Source: Lactobacillus sp. MRS-253-APC-2B (GTDB lineage: Bacteria > Bacillota > Bacilli > Lactobacillales > Lactobacillaceae). From it: a stretch of DNA of 64,000 bases. A program made the translations under genes and the position numbers. The notes under the pieces are model-generated. The model saw only the letters and a list, made by a program, of their open reading frames with translations. It did no database searches and was not told the DNA's origin. Every line of letters starts with the position of its first letter. Within the stretch, counting starts at the first letter, position 1. The stretch spans positions 1 to 64,000 of the forward strand of contig NZ_JABAFO010000006.1 in assembly GCF_012843675.1 (NCBI RefSeq), given 5' to 3'. Shown piece by piece: positions 14,107-42,105 of this stretch.

Positions 14107-14156
14107 AAAGGCATGTTTTAAAGATGCGTTGAAAAAGCAGAAAGGAGAAGTGCATC

Positions 14157-14240
14157 ATGATCAAGTTTGATTTTGCTAAGAACATGGCTTGTTGCTGCCT
14201 TTTTCTCTCTGCGGAAAAGGCTTGTTTGAGTTTAATCTAA
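14157..14240 (+). CDS. Cysteine leader peptide (27 residues, Cys-Cys-Cys)
   Basis: Short open frame with an excellent RBS (AAAGGAG ending 9 bp before ATG) and a TAA stop. Residues 10-16 read MACCCLF: three consecutive Cys codons (14190-14198), and a fourth Cys at position 23. This is the design of an amino-acid attenuator leader, where ribosome stalling at scarce Cys-tRNA decides between alternative RNA hairpins. An intrinsic terminator follows, and the genes downstream make cysteine. No match to a known leader was recalled; function is inferred from composition and position. Confidence 0.72.
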   Translation: MIKFDFAKNMACCCLFLSAEKACLSLI

Positions 14241-14306
14241 ACATCCCTATCGATCCATTCGATAGCAAAGCCCCGCAGACCTGTTAGTTGGCCAGCGGGG
14301 CTTTTT
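14197..14306 (+). promoter_or_regulatory. Attenuator: pause hairpin, antiterminator and terminator before metA
   Basis: Hairpin 1: GCCTTTT (14197-14203) / AAAAGGC (14215-14221), starting at the last Cys codon. Hairpin 2: CTATCGA (14247-14253) / TCGATAG (14259-14265). Terminator: AAAGCCCCGC (14267-14276) / GCGGGGCTTT (14295-14304) plus a T run. TCTGCGG (14208-14214), in the loop of hairpin 1, is the exact complement of CCGCAGA (14273-14279) in the terminator's 5' arm. A ribosome stalled on the Cys codons would prevent hairpin 1 and free TCTGCGG to break the terminator. Confidence 0.7.
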
Positions 14307-14391
14307 GTATATCGCACTTTGAATCATCGACAAACTCACCGGTGAAAGTCTGATTGTTTAACTATGGCAATCGTTAAGAAAGGAGTACCTG

Positions 14392-15210
14392 ATGTTAGAT
14401 CAGCATCTAAAAATCGGCATCTTAAATCTGATGCACGATAAAGTTGCTACTCAGCAGCGTTTCACATCAATTTTTAAGGCTCTTGATCCAACGGTTGAAC
14501 TTACCTTTTTCTATCCTGTTGATCATTATCGCAATCGCGAGGTCCCAGCACTGGTTCAAAACATTTCTGAACCACTGGATCTTAACAAGGCAAGCCAGCT
14601 GCAAGGATTCATCATCACGGGTGCCCCAATCGAACAAATGCCATTTGAGCAGGTCGAATATTATGATGAGATCACGCGCCTGATCGATACGCTGGTCGAA
14701 TTTAACATTCCGCAGCTCTACATCTGCTGGGGTGCCATGGCTGCCGCCAACTATTTGTATGGTATTGAAAAGCGGCAATTAACCAAAAAGTACTTCGGCG
14801 TTTTTGACAACGAGGTGTTGGTTGAGACTCCCGTATTAAATGGCTTGACTATGCCATTTCCGGCTCCCCACGCTCGCTATGCCGAACTGGATCATAATCA
14901 GATTCGGCAATCATCTGAACTGACGATCAACGCTATGTCCGTTGACGACTATCTGCTCGCTTTAAGCGGCAGCGACAATCAAGACTTTCTGTTTGCCCAC
15001 CTTGAATACGATCGCATGGCTCTCTTAGCCGAATATCAACGGGAAACGGCTGCCCATCCCGATCGTCACTATGCATTGCCCAAGAACTATTTTAAAGACA
15101 TCAAAACGCTAGCTGATCCCCAATTCAAATGGGAACAGGTTCAGCAGCTGTATTTTAGAAACTGGCTGCAAAAAGCGGCTGACTATTCACAACTCGCATT
15201 GATTGCATAA
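14392..15210 (+). CDS. metA: MetA-family O-acyltransferase (annotated homoserine O-succinyltransferase; probably acetyl-CoA dependent)
   Basis: 272 residues of the MetA (HTS) family. Nucleophile Cys112 in YICWGAMAAAN, and the His203/Glu205 pair in FAHLEYD are present. In ITGAPIE the last residue, Glu81, occupies the position where Glu favours acetyl-CoA and Gly favours succinyl-CoA in characterised MetA proteins. It is about 30 residues shorter than E. coli MetA. Directly upstream of cysK (15-bp gap) and behind a Cys-codon attenuator, so it may acetylate L-serine to feed cysteine synthesis rather than acylate homoserine. That substrate is an inference. Confidence 0.85.
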   Translation: MLDQHLKIGILNLMHDKVATQQRFTSIFKALDPTVELTFFYPVDHYRNREVPALVQNISEPLDLNKASQLQGFIITGAPIEQMPFEQVEYYDEITRLIDTLVEFNIPQLYICWGAMAAANYLYGIEKRQLTKKYFGVFDNEVLVETPVLNGLTMPFPAPHARYAELDHNQIRQSSELTINAMSVDDYLLALSGSDNQDFLFAHLEYDRMALLAEYQRETAAHPDRHYALPKNYFKDIKTLADPQFKWEQVQQLYFRNWLQKAADYSQLALIA

Positions 15211-15225
15211 AAAGGAGAATACCTT

Positions 15226-16152
15226 ATGTCAAAAATCTACACTTCAATCGACCAACTGATTGGCAACACCCCACTGTTAAAGCTTAACCGTATCGTGCCA
15301 GAAGACGCGGCTGATGTTTACGTAAAGCTTGAGTTCTTCAACCCAGCCGGCTCCATCAAAGACCGGATTGCCCTGGCCATGATTGAAAAGGCTGAACAAG
15401 AAGGCCAGCTTAAACCTGGCGACACTATTATCGAACCAACCTCAGGCAACACTGGGATTGGGCTGGCCAGCGTAGCAGCTGCCAAGGGCTACCACCTGAT
15501 TATCGTAATGCCAGAAACGATGAGCGTTGAACGACGCAAGCTGATGCAGGGCTACGGGGCTGAATTGATTCTGACGCCTGGTGCCGAAGGGATGAAAGGC
15601 TCAATTGCCAAGGCCCAAGAACTGGTTGACGCTAAAGGCTACTTTATGCCAATGCAGTTTGAAAACCCAGCCAACCCAGCCATCCACGAAGCTACGACCG
15701 GCCAAGAAATCATCGATGCTTTCGGCAAGGATAATCTGCCAGATGCCTTCGTTGCCGGTGTTGGTACTGGCGGTACTTTGAGTGGGATTGGTCATGCCTT
15801 GAAGCAAGCTGATTCAAGCATCAAAGTCTATGCACTTGAACCAGCTGAATCTCCAGTGCTCAAGGAAGGCAAAGCCGGTAAGCATAAGATCCAAGGTATC
15901 AGTGCCGGCTTTATTCCAAAGACGCTGGACCAAGACGTTTATGATGGTATTATCGAAGTTACCAGCGACGATGCTATCAAGACCGCTCAAGAAGTCGGTC
16001 ATCTGGAAGGATTTTTGCCGGGTATCTCAGCTGGTGCCAACATCTATGGTGCGATTGAACTGGCTAAGAAGCTTGGCAAGGGCAAGAAAGTCGTAACCGT
16101 TGCTCCTGATGGCGGTGACCGCTACTTGTCAACTGAGCTGTTTGACTACTAA
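15226..16152 (+). CDS. cysK: Cysteine synthase (O-acetylserine sulfhydrylase)
   Basis: PLP enzyme that makes L-cysteine from O-acetylserine and sulfide. 308 residues. PLP lysine Lys45 in NPAGSIKDR; substrate loop TSGNTG at 72-77; phosphate-binding GTGGTLSG at about 186-193. The RBS AAAGGAG is strong. Paired with the metA-like gene, which would supply the acylated substrate. Two terminator-like hairpins follow: the start of repeat copy B and a strong 13-bp stem at 16304-16345. Confidence 0.95.
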
Positions 16153-41880: not shown

Positions 41881-42105
41881 AAAAAACTCGCCCCTCGACG
41901 AATCGAGGGACGAGTTATTCGCGGTACCACCCTGGTTTATGACAATGTCATACGCTCAAATGACTGATAACGGTTGTCAACCGGGATACAAGGTACCGAC
42001 TCCGGAAGTGAAATTCACTAATGCCGGCAGAAATGACTTGCAGTCGATGATCATTTCTCCCTAAGTGCCGCCTAATCAGCTACTAATTTCCATCACAGTC
42101 GCTTT
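41881..42105 (-). promoter_or_regulatory. T-box riboswitch (Phe) in front of pheST
   Basis: Read leftward: a stem I region with a probable specifier codon TTC (42012-42010) followed by A; the T-box AGGGTGGTACCGCG (41933-41920); then the terminator ACTCGTCCCTCGA / TCGAGGGGCGAGT with a T run (41915-41881). Uncharged tRNA-Phe pairs with both sites and stabilises the antiterminator. This fills the 300-bp gap before the HxlR gene. Confidence 0.92.

Follow-up and report, generated by a model that had tools for sequence, protein, structure and literature searches.

A predicted cysteine-responsive leader-peptide attenuator of a serine acetyltransferase–cysK operon, and related poly-Cys leaders in Lactobacillales

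In Actinobacteria, mycobacteria among them, poly-Cys leader ORFs reportedly act through cysteine-responsive attenuation, according to work by Canestrari from 2020. These short upstream ORFs, in which a run of Cys codons precedes cysteine genes, are leaderless or are followed by no recognisable terminator, and Rho has been proposed to act there (Seliverstov 2005, PMC1262725). In Rhodobacterales, uORFC-8-2 upstream of cysS carries two tandem Cys codons, usually at positions 14–15, followed by two stems and a U-run, and ribosome-mediated attenuation was proposed (PMC8632094). Enterobacterial trp, his, and leu attenuators likewise sense a codon run and form exclusive antiterminator and terminator structures from regions 1:2, 2:3, and 3:4. 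Codon-run leaders are also described in Firmicutes for histidine (the leader of hisZ/hisS*; PMC2965389) and for branched-chain genes (the Leu-rich attenuator of S. aureus; PMC5794164). Finally, the L. paracasei cysK2-ctl1-cysE2 operon was induced ~8-fold when cysteine-deficient medium was compared with methionine-deficient medium, its 5′ UTR showed high read coverage, a terminator, and a palindrome, and the mechanism of its repression by cysteine was "yet to be discovered" in a 2018 transcriptome study (PMC6004538).

The locus described here, from a gut lactobacillus, lies in the window, the whole 64,000-nucleotide stretch of DNA that was analysed. It differs from the Actinobacterial cases in that its ORF is Shine-Dalgarno-led, both an intrinsic terminator and an explicit antiterminator are present, it belongs to Lactobacillales, and the operon behind it is a different one; uORFC-8-2 comes from another phylum and has a different gene and leader sequence. 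Compared with trp, his, and leu, the locus is predicted to sense cysteine and its antiterminator encloses extra hairpins, and the other two Firmicutes leaders differ from it in amino acid, genes, and structures. The L. paracasei operon shares cysteine repression of cysteine genes and premature termination in the 5′ UTR, but it has a transsulfuration gene set, is horizontally mobile, and has a different leader sequence. In the open-licence literature we found no description of a poly-Cys attenuator in Firmicutes, such attenuators being known there only from Actinobacteria and Rhodobacterales. A preliminary description of this DNA knew of no described poly-Cys attenuator at this locus.

Leader ORF, competing folds, and operon

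The leader gene (14157–14240, forward strand) consists of 27 codons and TAA and reads MIKFDFAKNMACCCLFLSAEKACLSLI before the stop. Its Shine-Dalgarno region (14140–14156, forward strand; GAAAGGAG, with GGAG at 14144–14147) is 95% identical in two relatives, and AGAAAGGAG is a strong RBS, with its end 9 nt ahead of the ATG. Cys codons begin at 14190, 14193, and 14196 (TGT TGC TGC, codons 12–14, at 14190–14198 on the forward strand) and again at 14223 (TGT), bearing out the earlier report of a 27-codon frame with a strong RBS, three adjacent Cys codons, and one more. A pattern search of the 1.98-Mb genome, with frames read from the matched strings, returned five RBS-ATG...TGY-TGY-TGY matches, among which this was the sole in-frame triplet. 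With a stricter four-Cys pattern applied to 70 genomes, every match looked out of frame and no further poly-Cys genes emerged. The promoter is weak by consensus.

Downstream, the RNA (forward strand throughout) can form mutually exclusive structures. Hairpin 1 pairs region 1 with region 2 over 9 bp (14197–14205/14213–14221), and a small middle hairpin (14247–14253/14259–14265) sits inside the antiterminator, where it brings regions 2 and 3 together. The intrinsic terminator (14267–14306) consists of a perfect 10-bp stem (14267–14276/14295–14304) and a U-tract extending to 14306. All three structures had been proposed and are present; hairpin 1 begins within the last codon of the Cys triplet. 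Region 3 (14267–14279) supplies both the terminator 5′ arm (14267–14276) and the antiterminator 3′ strand (14268–14279), and the antiterminator 5′ strand is region 2 (14208–14223; UCUGCGG-AAAA-GGCUU). The alternative pairing of TCTGCGG with CCGCAGA (14208–14214/14273–14279) is exact, as the preliminary description had it; that account was incomplete, having missed a second part in which GGCUU pairs with AAGCC (14219–14223/14268–14272). The region as a whole folds with z = −3.9 (1 of 200 shuffles equally stable). The antiterminator duplex has a predicted energy of −19.3 kcal/mol against a shuffle mean of −11.5 (p ~0.02), and its complementarity in the two closest relatives gives p values of 0.005 and 0.02 against shuffles.

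For each of the Cys codons 12, 13, and 14, we placed a ribosome with that codon in its A site and predicted how the RNA in front of it would fold. As long as the 3′ arm of the terminator has yet to be transcribed, the minimum-free-energy structure is the antiterminator, which closes a multiloop holding two small hairpins; at the furthest assumed ribosome footprint only its inner part forms. Once the 3′ arm is present, the terminator duplex (−22.1 kcal/mol) is more stable than the antiterminator (−19.3 kcal/mol), and the antiterminator must therefore act kinetically: as in trp, the outcome depends on which segment is transcribed first. The proposal that stalling at Cys codons frees the antiterminator agrees with these folds for codons 12–14 and fails for the fourth Cys codon (14223), which overlaps the antiterminator strand; a ribosome halted on this codon would cover region 2 and promote termination, which leaves the triplet as the predicted sensor.

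In the mechanism that we propose, ample Cys-tRNA would let the ribosome run through the leader, and with hairpin 1 and the terminator both formed, transcription would end at ~14306. Under a shortage of charged tRNA-Cys, it would halt on codons 12–14 instead and cover the hairpin 1 5′ arm, leaving 14208–14223 free to pair with 14268–14279 as that segment is transcribed; the resulting antiterminator would hide the terminator 5′ arm, and RNA polymerase would continue into the operon. From the sequence we infer leader translation, stalling at low Cys-tRNA, and the size of the fold-change that would result. The Shine-Dalgarno-led ORF, the run of codons for the end product, the intrinsic terminator, the exclusive antiterminator, and the cysteine genes, which together make up the sequence signature of a leader-peptide attenuator, are all found here, and the locus is very probably a ribosome-mediated, cysteine-responsive transcription attenuator of the serine acetyltransferase–cysK operon.

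The two genes of this operon span 14392–16152. The second (15226–16152, forward strand) is cysK, encoding cysteine synthase A (TIGR01139, 440.7 bits against a cut-off of 350.95). The first (14392–15210, forward strand) encodes a MetA-family acyltransferase and had been labelled metA, a name that is probably wrong: NCBIfam MetA models match the protein far below their cut-offs, and the orthologous Lacticaseibacillus gene called metA has been reported to encode a serine acetyltransferase (PMC6004538, citing Bogicevic 2016). By orthology with that enzyme and from the literature, the window gene most likely encodes serine O-acetyltransferase (SAT). The operon would then be SAT–cysK and make cysteine, and operon and signal thus agree better than the preliminary description supposed. 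A genuine-looking MetA paralogue is present elsewhere in the genome (locus L274, G000:C1:103437-104577, reverse strand), with a T-box upstream that likely has an AUG (Met) specifier.

The same leader occurs in two other species, L. mucosae DSM 13345 (L003, on the same contig as L085) and the species represented by genome G003 (L002), and both keep the CCC run. Both relatives match the window at 95% identity over the segment 14187–14225, which contains the Cys run and hairpin 1, and at 100% over the region 3 segment, while the leader tail (53–60% identity) and the terminator loop (27–36%) have diverged. The terminator stem is preserved in both, although a single G-C pair has become G-U in L. 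mucosae, and the middle hairpin retains its pairing despite altered sequence. The 60 nt between the terminator and the serine acetyltransferase gene (14332–14391, forward strand) are 93–94% identical in the relatives, far above the terminator loop, and contain the palindrome TCACCGGTGA and a GATTG...CAATC repeat. No second exact copy of the palindrome after the terminator, AACTCACCGGTGAAAG, was found in the genome.

Poly-Cys leaders across operons and a second build

Among distinct Lactobacillaceae SAT–cysK operon loci, a CCC leader lies within 500 nt in 44 of 90 compared to 0 of 1221 control segments, and a CC leader in 54 of 90 compared to 33 of 1221, counts that are not independent because the 90 loci are related and that are set against control segments which include coding DNA. 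A sharper control than segment counts is the restriction of run enrichment to Cys: across residue runs in RBS-led short upstream ORFs, CCC occurs 49 times and the next most frequent run, LLL, 5 times, with both TGT and TGC used. Within Limosilactobacillus, 25 of 30 loci have, ahead of the operon, a short ORF that is led by an RBS and contains adjacent Cys codons, and such leaders are also found in Companilactobacillus, Liquorilactobacillus, Agrilactobacillus, and some Lactobacillus. Between clades, the Cys run, which may end right at the stop codon, is the only feature that the leaders have in common. Both sequence checks proposed in the preliminary description support its reading: the Cys codons at orthologous loci are conserved although the rest of the leader changes completely, and competing stems are kept or covary. 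The exact architecture of the window locus is carried by three sequences only, and its own stems therefore show little covariation.

The leader is not universal. Operon loci of some species are without it, the Lacticaseibacillus cysE-cysK loci that we examined have no poly-Cys leader, and none was found upstream of cysK at a locus where cysK precedes metA (L024). The L. paracasei cysE-cysK operon looked constitutive (PMC6004538). Phage records gave no match, and matches to plasmid records were partial, none covering 80%. One Lactobacillaceae-type SAT–cysK operon with a CCC leader (L112) lies on a contig labelled Faecalicatena absiana, reflecting contamination, mislabelling, or transfer.

Most other Limosilactobacillus use a second arrangement, in which the leader ends in SCC(C) and the Cys codons together with the stop codon constitute the 5′ arm of a terminator with a stem of roughly 14–20 bp and a U-tract. 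A stalled ribosome would block such a terminator directly, without an antiterminator. In an alignment of 17 sequences, 95.4% of cells pair and the covariation score is 0.352, compared to 0.215 in shuffles (0 of 500 reach the observed value) and at most 0.173 when the alignment is slid; since the best register was chosen for each sequence, which favours pairing, most weight falls on the covariation at the wobble position, where the Cys codons themselves are fixed. At the last Cys codon this base forms C-G in 8 sequences, U-A in 7, and U-G in 1, and is unpaired in 1. The arrangement has exceptions: at L020 and at L022, which is from L. oris, the leader is present but the possible stem lacks a U-tract. 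The predicted classical antiterminator layout of the window locus is a minority form in its genus.

Two further arrangements were observed. In Companilactobacillus (L063–L077, L138–L159), the highly conserved leader CCCVVMNEHYYTFSTCLIPLN has Cys codons that pair with CAACA in a first hairpin; a simple test looked in this genus for an antiterminator that pairs with the 5′ arm of the terminator, and found none. In Agrilactobacillus and Liquorilactobacillus (L068, L074, L079, and L083), two tandem short leader ORFs precede the operon, the first ending in CCC at the stop codon and the second having its own RBS and ending, for example, in GGVRACC.

The cysK2 operons and the L. paracasei case

A homologue search of 395 Lactobacillales genomes identified 71 distinct cysK2-type loci, with a CC leader in 63 and a CCC leader in 48, and an intrinsic terminator lies between leader and gene in 62 of the 63. 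Among 20 genomes of other Bacilli, one locus had a clear CCC leader (L251, from genome G666 of class Bacilli outside Lactobacillales; MANSKNYVLIKDYCCCMLPISSIQIRHAY, upstream of a cysK2-like gene) and one had a chance-like CC frame (L239).

The 5′ UTR of L. paracasei cysK2-ctl1-cysE2 contains a CCC leader, which we found in the present analysis and of which the authors of the transcriptome study reported none (PMC6004538). The palindrome of that UTR is also present in genome G301, with the leader MMSQSMFNAINCCCRATRFWRCSAC upstream of it, and in the stalled-ribosome fold of the G301 leader a long antiterminator hides the palindrome 5′ arm. A simple duplex test did not set this antiterminator apart from shuffles, and the simple test for an antiterminator came out negative in one group of cysK2 loci. 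L. paracasei plasmids carry the DNA of the leader and cysK2 with 99.9% identity; their annotation includes cysM-metB-cysE and omits the leader. A poly-Cys leader may explain the unsolved cysteine control in L. paracasei.

Alternative explanations and implications

Of the alternatives, the one that survives best holds that the Cys run is sensed and that the outcome is translational, through release of the SAT RBS, or Rho-dependent, with Rho kept off, instead of intrinsic attenuation. The mycobacterial poly-Cys leaders without terminators, for which Rho was proposed (PMC1262725), offer a precedent, the L020 and L022 leaders lack a U-tract beside the stem, and the 60 nt before the gene are conserved. 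At the window locus, however, a perfect, GC-rich 10-bp stem with a U-tract is kept in both relatives, and nearly all cysK2 leaders have an intrinsic terminator before the gene, making this explanation unlikely.

Metals can be bound by cysteine-rich nascent peptides, and the leader cysteines might accordingly sense metal or redox state, as in Cu-responsive Cys-rich uORFs, instead of Cys-tRNA supply. We regard this as very improbable: the clades share nothing but the run of Cys codons, sometimes directly before the stop codon, the controlled genes make cysteine, and the L. paracasei operon, whose leader is of this type, shows a response to cysteine (PMC6004538).

That a DNA-binding regulator or a Cys T-box controls the operon, and that the ORF is incidental, is slightly less probable still. 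T-boxes and CymR-type regulators are the usual solutions in Firmicutes, the genome contains 29 T-box matches, and a conserved palindromic stretch follows the terminator. An Rfam scan of the window locus and 20 related loci, however, detected no T-box and no other family at gathering score; the 29 matches lie elsewhere, one of them before the genuine MetA paralogue, and a T-box at the operon was rejected. The palindrome AACTCACCGGTGAAAG lacks another exact copy in the genome, and the association of poly-Cys leaders with the operon is far above control. Known, ordinary elements in the window are a T-box upstream of a pheS-like gene (41903–42105, reverse strand), just under the Rfam gathering score, and the leaders of ribosomal proteins L20 and L21 (57496–57629 and 18035–18105, both reverse strand). 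Chance co-occurrence of ORF and terminator can be dismissed almost entirely, for although CC alone does turn up in RBS-preceded short ORFs of control segments, CCC does not, and the in-frame case is the only one in the genome and is conserved in relatives.

Beyond the window locus, poly-Cys leader attenuation is, on balance, probably the standard form of cysteine control in Lactobacillales, which comes in two builds and supplies the missing mechanism in L. paracasei. On this broader proposal, the classical build would operate at the window locus and in the mobile cysK2-ctl-cysE operons, and the terminator-arm build in most Limosilactobacillus. What makes these attenuators unusual is how widely they occur, together with the terminator-arm build, whose compact layout lets sensor codons double as a terminator arm, so that a change at a third position finds its match in the strand opposite. 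So far, T-boxes and repressors have framed the discussion of cysteine control in lactic acid bacteria. Here, one genome would place one of two MetA-family paralogues under a T-box and the other under a leader peptide. The proposal offers a specific answer for the cysteine-repressed operon of L. paracasei and would take in a whole class of regulatory genes that lack annotation across the order. Cysteine and sulphur metabolism are relevant to cheese flavour, probiotic redox physiology, and H2S in the gut.
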